From Solitalea longa (GTDB lineage Bacteria; Bacteroidota; Bacteroidia; Sphingobacteriales; Sphingobacteriaceae): a stretch of 64,000 bases of DNA. The stretch spans positions 124,001 through 188,000 of the forward strand of contig NZ_PQVF01000007.1 in NCBI RefSeq assembly GCF_002920915.1. The letters are read 5' to 3'. Below are positions 29,554-35,026 of this stretch, in pieces. The stretch's first letter is position 1. Every line of letters begins with the position of its first letter. Below the pieces are notes generated by a model. That model saw nothing but the letters and a program-made list of their open reading frames with translations, was not told where the DNA came from and ran no database searches. The translations under genes were made by a program, and so were the position numbers.

Positions 29554-30537
29554 ATGAAAAAAACGATTGCTTTACTTGCCGGAGGTTATTCGGGAGAACA
29601 CGTGGTTTCCTTAAAATCGGCAGCGCAAATTGAAAAAAGCATACCAGCAGACAAATACAATGTCTATAAAATTATTATAACACGCATGGGCTGGACCTAT
29701 ACCGATGCTTCGGGACAGTCGATTGAGGTGGATAAAAACGATTTTTCATTAACAGTTAACGATCAGAAAATAACTTTTGATTGTGCATTTATTGCGATCC
29801 ATGGAACACCAGGAGAAGATGGAATGTTGCAGGGCTATTTTGAAATGCTACAGATACCCTACACTACCTGCGATAGTTTTACCTCGGCCTTAACCTTCAA
29901 TAAAAGTTATACCAATTGCGTTGTAGGTTCAGCGGGGGTTAATGTGGCCAAATCATTACAGTTGTTCAGCGAACAAAAACATGATGTGGCCGATATTCTC
30001 TCGAAGCTTAAACTTCCTGTATTTGTTAAACCAAACAATGGCGGATCGAGTTTAGGAACATCAAAAGTGAAAATTGAAGCCGAACTGGAAGAAGCTATTG
30101 AACGTGCCTTTAAAGAAGATAACCAGGTGTTGGTTGAAGAGTTTATTAAAGGTCGTGAGTTTACCTGCGGAGTGGTTAAACGAAACAATGAGATCACGGT
30201 ATTGCCGGTTACTGAAATTAAAAGTTCTAAGGAGTTTTTTGATTTTGAAGCCAAGTATACTCCGGGAATGACCGAAGAGATTACACCGGCTGATATTGAC
30301 CCGGAGACCTTAAAGGTTGTTCAGCAAAACCTTAAACGTTCGTATGCCCGTTTAAACTGCAGGGGCGTGGTTCGAATCGATTTCTTCTTGCAGGAAGATA
30401 CTAACGAGTTTTATTTCCTTGAGGTAAATACCGTTCCTGGACAAACGGAAACCAGCTTAATTCCACAACAAGTGGCAGCTATGGGTTGGGACATCAGCGA
30501 ATTTTACGCTTCGTTAATTGAAGAAGCAATCAAGTAA
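29554..30537 (+). CDS. ddl: D-alanine--D-alanine ligase
   Basis: 327 residues with the ATP-grasp fold: the N-terminal GGYSGEHVVSLKSA, KPNNGGSSLGTSKV, the metal-binding region FYFLEVNTVPGQT and the end HGTPGEDG loop typical of Ddl. It makes the D-Ala-D-Ala dipeptide for peptidoglycan in the cytoplasm. It diverges from the PASTA-rhodanese-mltG genes and converges on the LytTR operon. Confidence 0.95.
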   Translation: MKKTIALLAGGYSGEHVVSLKSAAQIEKSIPADKYNVYKIIITRMGWTYTDASGQSIEVDKNDFSLTVNDQKITFDCAFIAIHGTPGEDGMLQGYFEMLQIPYTTCDSFTSALTFNKSYTNCVVGSAGVNVAKSLQLFSEQKHDVADILSKLKLPVFVKPNNGGSSLGTSKVKIEAELEEAIERAFKEDNQVLVEEFIKGREFTCGVVKRNNEITVLPVTEIKSSKEFFDFEAKYTPGMTEEITPADIDPETLKVVQQNLKRSYARLNCRGVVRIDFFLQEDTNEFYFLEVNTVPGQTETSLIPQQVAAMGWDISEFYASLIEEAIK

Positions 30538-30549
30538 TTTTAAAATTTT

Positions 30550-30590
30550 GATTGTAGATTTTAGAACCGTCATTTCTAAAATCTACAATC
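30550..30590. terminator. Bidirectional terminator-like hairpin between ddl and LytTR gene
   Basis: A perfect 17-bp stem, gattgtagattttagaa (30550-30566) with ttctaaaatctacaatc (30574-30590), 7-base loop, between two convergent stops. A related word (cgattgtag) forms the hairpin at 34544-34593. Confidence 0.65.
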
Positions 30591-30602
30591 TAAAATCTAA
30601 AA

Positions 30603-31346
30603 TCATTTCACCTGCTTCGCTTTTAAAAGCTTGTTGATTTCATGCTGATACATCCGACCAATCGGTAATTCTTTCTTTTCAATTTCAATATCATCAGCAG
30701 TAAACGAATCAATTTTGTCAATTGCAACTAAATACGAGCGATGAATTCTGATGAACTGATCTTCGGGGAGCATCGATTCGAGTGCAGAGATGGAAAGTTT
30801 AGTGATAATTTGTTTTGAACGTGTGATTACCCTGATGTAGTCCTTCAAACTTTCAACAAAAAGAATATCTTTCAGCAACACCTTAATCATCTTACGATCG
30901 GCCCGGAAATAAATAAATGCTTCGTTTTTATTGTTTGAACCATTATTGTTGATTTCGGAGTTACCACCATTTGATGGCAATTGGGTTTGCATCACCTTAT
31001 TCACCGCTTTAATAAAGCGATCAAATGAAATAGGTTTCAGTAAATAATCTACAGCATCTAACTCAAACCCTTCAACGGCATATTTTCTGAAAGCAGTGGT
31101 GAAAATAATTTTTGGCGGATTTTTTAATGTTCGCACAAAATCGGTCCCTAAGAGCTGCGGCATTTTTATATCCAAAAATAGAAGATCCACTTTTTCACCC
31201 TGTAAATAGCGAAGTGCCTCCACACAATTTATACAACTGCCTGTAAGTTGAAGGTTGGGAACAGCCTCAATGTATTTTTGTAAAACATCAAGTGCAGGAG
31301 GCTCGTCATCCACTATTAAACAGTTTATTTTAATTTCTGATAACAT
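30603..31346 (-). CDS. LytTR-type response regulator
   Basis: 247 residues. The receiver domain (~8-125) has the acidic pocket Asp13/Asp14 (IVDDEP), phosphoacceptor Asp59 in LLFLDIKMP, and a Lys in YLLKPISF. The C-terminal LytTR DNA-binding domain (~145-245) includes DILFVESLKDYIRV and IRIHRSYLVAI. It is the regulator partner of the two upstream kinases, starting 12 bases after the second one's stop. Targets unknown; the divergent gene at 34015 is one candidate. Confidence 0.92.
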   Translation of the reverse strand: MLSEIKINCLIVDDEPPALDVLQKYIEAVPNLQLTGSCINCVEALRYLQGEKVDLLFLDIKMPQLLGTDFVRTLKNPPKIIFTTAFRKYAVEGFELDAVDYLLKPISFDRFIKAVNKVMQTQLPSNGGNSEINNNGSNNKNEAFIYFRADRKMIKVLLKDILFVESLKDYIRVITRSKQIITKLSISALESMLPEDQFIRIHRSYLVAIDKIDSFTADDIEIEKKELPIGRMYQHEINKLLKAKQVK

Positions 31347-31358
31347 GTCTGGTCAACA

Positions 31359-32573
31359 TTAGGTAAACGCCTGATGTGTAGCAATTAATTCATCCTCTTC
31401 AGTATAGTTGATAGTTTCTAAATCAATTTTAAGAGAGGATACGTAGACGTTACCTTCAGATACTGAATTGAATTTGTGTTTTTCTGGGTATACCGTCTCC
31501 AGGCGTCTTCTCAAGTCAATTAAGCTTGCAGTTTCCTCCATTGCGGGCGATTTTACGGAATGACTTCCTGTAAGCTTAAAATGAAGCTCAGATTCAGAAA
31601 TGTTGAGGTTTATATTTATCCATGGCTGCTCAATAGAAGGATCATCACAGTTGTTTATGCAATTCTCCATCAGCGGCAACAATAGCAAGGGGGCTATTGA
31701 TTTATTTTCCGCATTGCCGGTTACTTGTAAAAAGATATCTATACGACCATCATACCTCAATTTTTCAAGGCCAACGTAATCTTTTAATAGATGTAATTCT
31801 TTTTCTAATGGAACTTGAGATTGATCGCAATCATAAAGCATATAACTCAGCACTTCAGAAAGTTTTAATACCATATTTGCAGCTTTATTGGTTGCAGTTA
31901 GCGAATAGGTATAAATTGTGCTTAGTGTATTGAATAGAAACCGGGGATGCAACTGCGTTTTTAATAAAGCTAATTCTGTTTTAACTTTTTCTCTTTCAAT
32001 AAGCTCATTTTCTTGTTGTTTTTGCAACCATCTTTTAAAAAGTGTAATTACACTGGCACCACCTATGACTTTTAATAATGAAAATAAGCCAAACTGAAGA
32101 CTGTACATTAATTGACTGCCTTCTTTTTCTAAGCCAGGAGGGGTAAAAAGACCGTATCGCCATACAGATAGTAATGTATAACCTTTAGCGGGTACATCCT
32201 TATCCAAATTGAATATAGAATATTGCTGTCCAACCGGAATTAGCCAGAGTATGTAATTAACAAAGGCAAAAAAACAAGTAAACAAAAGGATTCCTATTAC
32301 AGAACGTATACGTCTTTTTTTAAGAATATATTCAGGTAATAAAAAGTAGATAAATAAATAGCAACCAGGAATATGTATTGTTAAAATGTTTAACAAAATA
32401 TTACAATAAAAAAACTGAATAGGGTGATTTACCAATGTGTTACTGCTCATTTCTTGCATGAGTGAAGATCCCATTGTGAGAGAAAAAAACGCAGTCCATA
32501 TCAACCAGAAAAACAGATGACGTAGTAAACGAATTGATGATTTCTCTGAAAATATGAATTCATGAAGTGTCAT
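31359..32573 (-). CDS. LytS-like sensor kinase homologue, catalytically degenerate
   Basis: 404 residues: four or five membrane helices (~15-180), a coiled linker, then a His_kinase/HATPase module. In the His box HPHFLFN of the family the phosphoacceptor is replaced by Arg211 (HPRFLFNT; codon CGG at 31941-31943). The N-box is altered (PLMENCINNCDD) and the G-box glycines are absent (TASLIDLRRRL). So autophosphorylation should be impossible; it is probably a pseudokinase. It lies between an intact paralogue and the LytTR regulator in one operon. Confidence 0.85.
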   Translation of the reverse strand: MTLHEFIFSEKSSIRLLRHLFFWLIWTAFFSLTMGSSLMQEMSSNTLVNHPIQFFYCNILLNILTIHIPGCYLFIYFLLPEYILKKRRIRSVIGILLFTCFFAFVNYILWLIPVGQQYSIFNLDKDVPAKGYTLLSVWRYGLFTPPGLEKEGSQLMYSLQFGLFSLLKVIGGASVITLFKRWLQKQQENELIEREKVKTELALLKTQLHPRFLFNTLSTIYTYSLTATNKAANMVLKLSEVLSYMLYDCDQSQVPLEKELHLLKDYVGLEKLRYDGRIDIFLQVTGNAENKSIAPLLLLPLMENCINNCDDPSIEQPWININLNISESELHFKLTGSHSVKSPAMEETASLIDLRRRLETVYPEKHKFNSVSEGNVYVSSLKIDLETINYTEEDELIATHQAFT

Positions 32574-32603
32574 AAAAGACCAATTTTGTTGTTTATAGAT
32601 TCA

Positions 32604-33764
32604 TTATGCTGTTTGAATCAATGGAAAATAAGATTCCATTAATGCATCAGTTTCAGGGCTAAATTCTTTCTCTAAAGCTACTTCTAAATAAATACTGAAA
32701 ATTTCCGGATCGGAGTTAATGCGTAAAGTGTGCTCATTAGGATAAAGCAACTGCAAGCGTTTTTGAACATTTACTAAACCAATTCCGCTGTTTTTAGTAA
32801 TGAGTTGGTCTGAATCTAAAGGCTTACTATTGATCAGCTGCATTGTTAAATGCTGGTCAGAAATCAATAATTCAAGCTTTATCCAAGGATTTTCTAACAG
32901 GTTACTTGCCCCATGCTTGAAACTATTTTCGATAAAAGGTAATAATAGCAGTGGTGGAATTGATCTATGTTCCAGATTGCCAACAATTGAAATATCAAGG
33001 TTTAATCTTTTTCCATACCGAATTTTTTCTAATTCTAAATAACTCTCAATCATCTCTATTTCATGGGCTAACAGAACTTTAGGATGGTTGCATTCGGTAA
33101 TAATGTAATGCATAAGGTTTGACAATTTCAATGTCAAATCGGGAGCAATGGGGTTGGATGTGAGAATAAAAGAATAAATATTGTTTAATGTATTGAATAA
33201 GAAATGAGGGTGGATTTGTGCTTTGAGTAATTGTAATTCAGCGTTTAATTTTTCTCGTAGCAATAACTCATTCTCTTTCTGCTTTATAGCTAAATGCTTG
33301 CCCAATTTAATCGTAGCAGCTATTACAAAAAGGGCGAATACGTTATAAGTCAGATCTCGTAAAATTTCAACCCTGATTACCCGCCATGAATTGAAATCTT
33401 GAAAATAATTGACCAACCCAAAGTACATCCTGGTTACTGGGGCTAAACTTCCTAGTAGGAGATTGGCTATCATGGCTATAAAAAAGCCACTAATGGCAAA
33501 GGTGATTTTTCTTCTTAAACTACCATTGGCAATTAAGAAATTATAAAAGATATAAAAAACAACAGCATGACGTAGCGTAATTAAGAAAGCAGTGATCAAC
33601 AATTGCTTATACTGTTCATCAGTGTATATCTGTTTGAATTGGCTGTACCAAGGTGTGAAAATATAAACAATGAGAATATAGAAGTACCACACTCCCCAAA
33701 ATGCAGTATGACGAAGTAGTTGATTTGAAAACCTTTCGGAAAATATGAAATCATAGGCTTTCAT
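32604..33764 (-). CDS. LytS-like sensor histidine kinase, intact
   Basis: 386 residues: about four membrane helices, coiled linker (~160-178), His box IHPHFLFNTLNN with His187, N-box PFIENSFKHGAS, and G-box SGIGLVNVQKRL. All parts of the PF06580-type kinase are intact. Its N-terminus (FIFSERFSNQLLRHTAFWGVW) is clearly related to that of the next gene, so the two arose by duplication. First gene of the kinase-pseudokinase-regulator operon. Confidence 0.92.
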   Translation of the reverse strand: MKAYDFIFSERFSNQLLRHTAFWGVWYFYILIVYIFTPWYSQFKQIYTDEQYKQLLITAFLITLRHAVVFYIFYNFLIANGSLRRKITFAISGFFIAMIANLLLGSLAPVTRMYFGLVNYFQDFNSWRVIRVEILRDLTYNVFALFVIAATIKLGKHLAIKQKENELLLREKLNAELQLLKAQIHPHFLFNTLNNIYSFILTSNPIAPDLTLKLSNLMHYIITECNHPKVLLAHEIEMIESYLELEKIRYGKRLNLDISIVGNLEHRSIPPLLLLPFIENSFKHGASNLLENPWIKLELLISDQHLTMQLINSKPLDSDQLITKNSGIGLVNVQKRLQLLYPNEHTLRINSDPEIFSIYLEVALEKEFSPETDALMESYFPLIQTA

Positions 33765-34014
33765 TTTTCTATGATTTTAGAGCTATAAATTTAAAGATTG
33801 GTTTTATAAAAACAGCTCTTTCAGTAAGTTATTCGACCAATGACGGTTTTTGGATGACGAATTATCTTTTTTATCGACCAACGGTAATAATTGTTCAAAA
33901 TAAGGATAGTATATGCCGGAGGCTTGTATTAGGCTAGTTAATAAATGACGCGATTTAGTGAACAATATCTTTATAATGATTAAAAAGTATTGTATAACTC
34001 TAAAACGTATTGCT

Positions 34015-34530
34015 ATGAAAAAATTAGTGATTTCATTAACCGGAGGGCTCTTTTTCTATCTCAGTTTGATAAACAGCTCTAATGCCCAGGTTATTTTACC
34101 AGAAGTAACTGTTACAGGCTCAAACAGCTATATTACTTTAAATGAAAAATTGTATAAGACGTTTAATCACATATTTAAAGAAGCTTCGGATATTAAATGG
34201 TATGGGGTTGATAAGAATTTCGTTGCCAAGTTTATGATGAACGAGCAAAAAAATCAGGTAGCTTTCACTAAAAACGGTACGATGATATACCATCTGACTT
34301 ATGGATTTGAAAAAAATTTGCCCAAGGATGTCAGAGCACAGGTAAAAAGAAGATATTTCGATTATACTATTATGTCTGTTGTAAATTTAAAACAGGACAA
34401 TAGGAATATCTGGTTGATAAATTTGCACGATGCAGTAAATATAATCGGTCTAAGAGTTGAAGATGGTAGTATGGATGAAATGGAAAAGTACTTTAAACAA
34501 ACTAATGAAGCTGTTGCAGCCTATAAATGA
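34015..34530 (+). CDS. Secreted hypothetical protein, possibly PepSY-like
   Basis: About 171 residues from the ATG at 34015, which gives a good signal peptide (MKKLVISLTGG...SSNAQ); the ATG at 33958 would add 19 unlikely residues. The mature part (strand-helix patterns around IKWYGVDKNFVAKFMMNEQK and FTKNGTMIYHLTYGF) recalls the BLIP/PepSY-like small secreted proteins of Bacteroidota; this is inference. It is divergent from the LytS/LytTR operon. Confidence 0.5.
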   Translation: MKKLVISLTGGLFFYLSLINSSNAQVILPEVTVTGSNSYITLNEKLYKTFNHIFKEASDIKWYGVDKNFVAKFMMNEQKNQVAFTKNGTMIYHLTYGFEKNLPKDVRAQVKRRYFDYTIMSVVNLKQDNRNIWLINLHDAVNIIGLRVEDGSMDEMEKYFKQTNEAVAAYK

Positions 34531-34543
34531 AAGAATTTTAGAT

Positions 34544-34593
34544 TTACGATTGTAGGTTTGGGAGAATTGTACTCTTAAATTCTACAATCGTAA
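34544..34593. terminator. Hairpin between secreted-protein gene and thioesterase gene
   Basis: A 12-bp stem ttacgattgtag (34544-34555) with ctacaatcgtaa (34582-34593), 26-base loop with little pairing, between two convergent stops. It shares the core gattgtag with the hairpin at 30550-30590. Confidence 0.5.
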
Positions 34594-34606
34594 TTCAATA
34601 ATTCCC

Positions 34607-35026
34607 CTAAATAGCGTACTTCTCAATGATCCAATCAGGAATAACTTCTGACCTTCCGCTTTTTGTGTTTACCATAGTATAGTCGAACCATCCGCTTGAG
34701 CACAATTTGCCGGTTTTATTACGATGAATTTCAAACCCAACTTTCAAATCCTTTTTTGCAATACTGATGATCCAGGTTTTAACGGTAAAAACATCCCCAA
34801 GTAATAAAGGACGTTTGTACTCAACATAAGCAGTATTTATTACCCAACCGTAGTTCAAAGCCAGAAACTCTTCCATGGGCATTTTATAAAATCGTTCCAT
34901 CTGATCATAACGGGCAGCCAATACATAATCGAAATATTTGCTGTTATGAACGTGATTGTTCATATCGATATCATCAGGACGGACCTTCAGTTCACTTTCA
35001 AAGGCTGAATATTGTTTTTCACTCAT
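34607..35026 (-). CDS. Acyl-CoA thioesterase (4HBT hotdog family)
   Basis: 139 residues. The segment VRPDDIDMNNHVHNSKYFDYV carries the family's Asp/Asn catalytic region and EYKRPLLLGD the central strand. Cytoplasmic thioesterase of unknown substrate. Distinct from the YbgC-like enzyme at 24300 and the C-terminal-extended one at 63292. Confidence 0.85.
   Translation of the reverse strand: MSEKQYSAFESELKVRPDDIDMNNHVHNSKYFDYVLAARYDQMERFYKMPMEEFLALNYGWVINTAYVEYKRPLLLGDVFTVKTWIISIAKKDLKVGFEIHRNKTGKLCSSGWFDYTMVNTKSGRSEVIPDWIIEKYAI

Follow-up and report, generated by a model that had tools for sequence, protein, structure and literature searches.

Paired kinase-like membrane proteins that serve a single response regulator have been described before. 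ComE is a regulator of the LytTR type. In group A Streptococcus, two membrane kinase-like proteins, FasB and FasC, are encoded with one ComE-like regulator, FasA; the accessible part of the report describes an interaction between FasB and FasC in a two-hybrid test, supporting a heterodimer, and proposes that FasC is a pseudokinase in which His246 is required and the ATP domain dispensable (PMC12675982). The locus analysed here shares this outline—two kinase-like membrane proteins encoded with one regulator, one of them a proposed pseudokinase—but differs in that FasC, as far as the accessible text goes and likened by description only, needs His246, whereas the protein that we call kinase B has lost its phosphoacceptor His and its ATP-site motifs together. 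Because this His is lost, B cannot carry phosphate at the phosphoacceptor position, where Arg211 stands in place of the phosphate-carrying His that FasC keeps.

Other relationships between kinase-like proteins are known. RetS and GacS belong to a different kinase family and do not form a tandem LytS pair. They are comparable in that direct contact allows one kinase-like protein to control the other, as stated in the accessible text (PMC12675982; PDB 7n0e). DivL, in the available portions of the sources, is a kinase-fold protein without kinase activity that regulates another kinase (PMC4211667, PMC9430884) and, with a pseudokinase variant of ChrS, stands for other modes of pseudokinase action (PMC9491836, PMC4211667); it carries PAS domains and regulates CckA, whereas B is LytS-type and adjoins an intact relative. 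S. aureus LytSR and E. coli YpdAB, again from partial sources, resemble the present system in combining a LytS-type kinase, a LytTR regulator and direct repeats near the target promoter, and differ in having one kinase with all motifs rather than an A–B pair. In YpdA, all kinase motifs are present. Judged by title, among the matches listed from a literature in which subscription journals lie mostly outside the search, we found no published description of a LytS pseudokinase pair in Bacteroidetes.

The window is a stretch of 64,000 nucleotides from Solitalea longa (genome G000, contig C34, positions 124001–188000), which was compared with three other genomes of the genus (G001, G002 and G003) and with G023 from the same family. 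On its minus strand, kinase A (386 residues; 32604–33764), kinase B (404 residues; 31359–32573) and, as the last gene, a LytTR response regulator (30603–31346; Response_reg and LytTR by Pfam) are separated by 30 bp and 12 bp, respectively, such that two kinase-like proteins and one regulator are encoded in a single gene run. Both kinases match PF06580 well above the Pfam cut-off of 25.2 bits (A, 87.7; B, 76.5); NCBIfam has no matching family for either kinase, nor for the small protein encoded divergently from them. Kinase A has the motifs HPHFLFNT, with the phosphoacceptor His187 (codon at 33204–33206, minus strand), ENSFKHG and GIGL, and the receiver Asp59 of the regulator lies, by sequence, within FLDIKMP. 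The original prediction had posited two intact reading frames, a complete set of motifs in A and one LytTR regulator, all of which these features bear out.

Kinase B consists of an N-terminal hydrophobic region, a DHp domain and a GHKL-like CA domain. Its motif at the phosphoacceptor is LKTQLHPRFLFNT (HPRFLFNT), in which Arg211 is encoded by CGG at 31941–31943 of the minus strand (ccg on the plus strand). Our alignment comprised 69 kinases, B included. The 66 loci considered were the window, nine picked from the best relatives of B (L055–L063) and 56 picked through similarity to the regulator (L078–L133), and 64 of them contributed to the alignment; L081 and L103 contain no kinase, and rows scoring below 170 bits against the profile were excluded (one, in L078, with NPHFIFN). 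The phosphoacceptor column holds His in 65 of the 69, Arg in three and Gly in one, the exceptions being B of G000, G003 and G002 and a tandem protein, X, of G023. In the N box, the His and Gly, each kept in 64/69 kinases, are Asn and Cys in B, and the two G2 glycines are Thr and Ser; only the second of these is informative, because the first is kept in just 27/69 (the second, 64/69). The arginine reading and the loss of the G-box glycines, as first called from the window, therefore agree with the frame, the codon and the alignment to PF06580 homologues, with that qualification for the first glycine. The N-box Asn is retained, as is Asn215 (codon at 31929–31931, minus strand), four residues past the phosphoacceptor. 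S. aureus LytS, according to the part of the report available, autophosphorylates at His390, and its phosphatase activity depends critically on Asn394 (PMC8774646); matched by motif, these are the positions of Arg211 and Asn215.

Sequencing error was considered as a source of Arg211 and is unlikely, because Arg, encoded by CGG, recurs in three genomes (G000, G002 and G003). Among the features of a LytS-type histidine kinase, B has the PF06580 domain, the N-box Asn and the DHp and GHKL fold, and lacks the phosphoacceptor His of PHFLFN, the N-box His-Gly and the second G2 glycine. An AlphaFold model built on a six-row alignment (mean pLDDT of 63.2; 79–89 per block across residues 251–390, with 58 at 341–350) predicts a DHp and a GHKL-like fold, with the membrane part poorly predicted, and its best Foldseek matches are the kinase domains of AgrC (6e52) and GanS (6swk/6swj). 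From its motifs, B is predicted to be catalytically inactive and is probably a poor binder of ATP, although the retained N-box Asn may still permit some nucleotide binding. Were B still a kinase, another residue would have to take the phosphate, for example His209, which lies two residues before the Arg and is invariant in B and X. This offers no compensation, because A and many intact relatives (HPHFLFN) have a His there too, and B is also without the N-box His-Gly and the G2 glycine, which leaves continued kinase activity scarcely credible. Judged by motif, B is a retained pseudokinase.

Orthologues of B are encoded in G003 (locus L055; 69% identity) and G002 (L056; 47–48%), where A, B and the regulator stand in the same order as in the window. 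Neither orthologue contains a stop codon, both keep the Arg, and the N-box His-Gly and G2 are lost in each, so that Arg and lost boxes occur together in B of 3/3 genomes; no close homologue of B that keeps the His was found. Searched against 399 genomes of the family, a profile of the three B proteins and X gave four scores above 500 bits, those of its own members, with the next at 250; no more than three B orthologues were recovered from that set. A pattern search of an 84,980-species collection, which may not include the window's own or very near genomes, matched 28 stretches, none of which encodes a relative of B.

The kinases travel with their neighbours. In G001 the block is absent: relatives of the window genes at 34607–35026 and 29554–30537, which enclose the block in G000 and G003, stand 69 bp apart, and the best regulator match in that genome has an E-value of 6e-57, against 3e-119 or better in the other members of the genus. 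G002 has these two genes next to each other, with the block at a distance of about 2 Mb. The four genes of the block, namely the small divergent gene, those of both kinases and that of the regulator, are thus gained or lost together. A short CTAAAAT stretch, present close to either end of the G000 block (window positions 30538–34606), recurs in the G001 gap, and the G002 gap between the flanking genes (L141:8988–9239) holds a run of GGGTTAC repeats.

Between G000 and G003, the kinases have similar pairwise dN/dS values (B, 0.16; A, 0.15) and the regulator has a value of 0.08; synonymous sites are saturated in most of the remaining comparisons. Kinase B combines lost catalytic residues with purifying selection, as expected of a pseudo-histidine kinase, and appears to be preserved by selection rather than decaying. 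Of the original proposal that B was retained after losing activity, the retention holds (Arg in 2/2 orthologues, no stops and a low dN/dS), and the loss of activity is what the motifs predict.

Constraint is unevenly spread over the protein. We divided A and B around the motif into a membrane part, DHp and CA, and compared differences between G000 and G003 using Fisher tests. In DHp, A differs at 8/93 positions and B at 13/93 (p = 0.35), and in the membrane part at 64/146 and 59/175 (p = 0.07); in CA the counts are 24/139 for A and 53/133 for B (0.17 versus 0.40; p = 4.7e-5). For CA, the comparison of A with B gives p = 0.005 between G000 and G002 and p = 0.09 between G003 and G002. The ATP domain of B is thus replaced faster than that of A at the protein level, and the dimerization and docking domain is not. 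Within B alone, identity is 80/93 in DHp and 80/133 in CA (p = 2.5e-5). Conservation of DHp is partly a family trait, because the DHp of A also exceeds its CA (85/93 and 115/139 identical between G000 and G003; p = 0.08, 0.002 and 0.0013). Regional dN/dS between G000 and G003 is 0.108 for the CA of B, a rough ratio given a dS of 2.27 near saturation, and 0.111 for that of A (dS of 0.75); it is 0.064 and 0.047 in DHp and 0.259 and 0.233 in the membrane part, for B and A, respectively. Because dS is also higher in B, its CA shows no relaxation by this measure; the domain is still constrained, which speaks against a dead domain drifting. That B is a decaying duplicate with no present function would accord with the faster protein-level replacement of its CA and with the absence of the block from one of the four genus genomes, but the uninterrupted frames in three genomes, the most distant at 48% identity, the overall dN/dS of 0.16, a regional CA ratio not above that of A, a DHp conserved like that of A and the same Arg codon in all three make this reading very improbable.

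We infer that B is a non-catalytic membrane subunit of a unit formed with A and the regulator, in which an A–B heterodimer lets B set the balance between the kinase and phosphatase activities of A and add a sensor input, a proposal to which we give about an even chance. The regulatory or heterodimeric role first suggested for B fits the conservation of DHp and the existence of further active/dead pairs, with the dimer itself a prediction beside which two other roles have to be weighed. In the first, B would be a dedicated phosphatase of the regulator, having lost the residue that gains phosphate and kept the Asn that removes it, such that A would add the phosphate and B would take it off. A CA domain with bound nucleotide is often required for phosphatase activity. 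In B such a domain is possibly missing, which counts against this role, as does the Gly that X of G023 has at the place of Asn215. On its side are DHp being the most conserved part of B and the presence of Asn215, the counterpart of LytS Asn394 in the accessible part of that study (PMC8774646), in 3/3 B orthologues and in a further pseudokinase, from contig L071; this retention says little, however, because Asn is found in 68/69 kinases, and we consider a dedicated phosphatase rather unlikely. In the second, B would act like DivL as a sensor or sink for the phosphorylated regulator, its DHp docking the regulator and either feeding back on A or titrating the regulator, with no heterodimer. DivL, as described in the available part of the source, has neither kinase nor phosphatase activity and uses the regulator docking surface to bind DivK~P (PMC4211667), and such a role fits the DHp conservation in B; B and A are related and come from the same gene run, however, which favours co-assembly and renders a free-standing sink distinctly unlikely.

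In the heterodimer model, A, B and the LytTR regulator would form one signalling unit expressed from one gene run. Kinase A would autophosphorylate and then phosphorylate the regulator, and B, accepting no phosphate at Arg211, would keep its DHp and the constrained fold of its ATP domain; within the A–B heterodimer, B would tune the kinase/phosphatase balance of A and contribute input from a membrane sensor of its own. Once phosphorylated, the regulator would act at a shared promoter that drives the kinase genes on one side and the divergent gene, for a putatively secreted protein, on the other. If A–B dimers form, the His of A can be phosphorylated only in cis, and therefore B would silence an A that acts in trans and merely tune one that acts in cis; confirmed heterodimers would thus show which of these two routes LytS kinases take in autophosphorylation. 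With adjacent genes, a candidate target promoter within the block and relatives that either have or lack it, the locus is a natural test case for a dead kinase subunit governing a live one.

The divergent small gene (34015–34530, plus strand) encodes 171 residues from its ATG, with a start that is signal-peptide-like by eye. It adjoins the kinases in 4/4 family genomes that have the pair. Pfam gave no convincing match for the window's protein, and its homologue in G023 has a PepSY_like match below the cut-off (21.8 of 28.3 bits). In the upstream region shared by this gene and A lie three direct TTNGTC repeats with a 20/21 bp period (33835–33881, minus strand), a candidate LytTR binding array. 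LytTR sites, in the portion of the source available, comprise repeats of 9–11 nt with spacers of 11–13 nt (PMC4847170), with which, by analogy, the period agrees. The motif was picked post hoc, after the window's sequence had been viewed; the array is exact in G000 and G003 and has one mismatch in G002, the minimum in random sequences being 2–3 mismatches (300 first-order random sequences per region), and it was not found in the G023 promoter, where 42% of random sequences were as good. A 20/21 search allowing up to two mismatches returned one match in the window, the exact one, with at least one match in 14/100 shuffles. Genome-wide, G000 and G003 each have a single exact array, in either case at the shared promoter; at up to one mismatch, the matches per genome (1, 2, 2 and 1 in G000–G003) do not exceed a reversed-pattern control (4, 2, 2 and 2). 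The promoter common to A and the divergent, putatively secreted gene is a candidate target of the regulator. Promoter-like sites numbered 16, against 17.8 in shuffles, and terminator-like sites 4, against 2.0.

Loss of the phosphoacceptor His coincides with tandem arrangement elsewhere too. The four kinases of 69 without it are one member in each of the four tandem pairs. In G023 the order is regulator, X and A, adjoining the homologue of the divergent small gene; X reads HPGFLSG and has lost the boxes. A Chitinophagales contig (L071), detected through an Arg pattern, carries first a degenerate kinase, with the motifs INPRFLFNT and VDNVFEH and without G2 glycines, then an intact one (TNPHFLFNT, ENAFKHG, NIGL) and finally a LytTR-like regulator that by eye resembles the window's; neighbouring frames overlap by 14 bp, and no homologue of the small gene was seen on this short contig. 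A 75-row tree joins the two L071 kinases to each other (100/100) and places B in a separate supported group, which implies that His was lost inside a tandem pair at least twice; L071 is uninformative on how often this happens, because it was found through its Arg. X may be the counterpart of B or a third case. Its position is unresolved in the 75-row tree; in a 28-row tree, built with every second unnamed row among those of at least 350 bits, it joins B at 98/95 on an end branch of more than five changes per column. In that tree A, B and X group at 97/85, A and B without X have a p-AU of 0.056 and X with A of G023 one of 0.077, the groups tested having been named after the first tree was viewed.

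The two separate cases, with X as a possible third, suggest that in Bacteroidota active-plus-dead LytS pairs serving one LytTR regulator could be a three-component design that has arisen repeatedly. One copy would lose the phosphoacceptor and ATP-site motifs and keep DHp, turning a homodimer into an asymmetric A–B sensor with one catalytic half; we put this forward tentatively, as possible rather than probable.

Replacement of the His was also sought by pattern. In the 84,980-species collection, Arg/Ser variants matched nine stretches, five of them in proteins that match the kinase profile (L065, L066, L067, L069 and L071; L066 and L069 are alike around the motif, and L067 is cut by its end); the other four (L064, L068, L070 and L072) gave no kinase-profile match. 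Arg, Leu or Pro at the site occurred in 5/399 family genomes, namely the three with B, G198 and G090, the last without a kinase-profile match there; in a phylum sample that did not contain G002 and G003, Arg or Ser occurred in 1/395, the window itself. Between them these patterns covered replacement by Arg, Ser, Leu and Pro, and X of G023 escapes them all.

Lone LytS kinases with PRF in place of PHF and with intact N and G2 boxes occur at L135:3750–4826, which is the same as L142:12749–13825 (G198), and at L065:2118–3215; that of G198 adjoins a regulator related to the window's. These single kinases are either ATP-competent kinases lacking the His or sequence errors. A protein from Clostridia metagenome-assembled genomes (L069:2070–3365 and L066:7012–8000) has a LytS-like core with NPRFLFN, no recognizable G2 box and an N-terminal part that by eye is not membrane-like, and is a candidate LytS pseudokinase.
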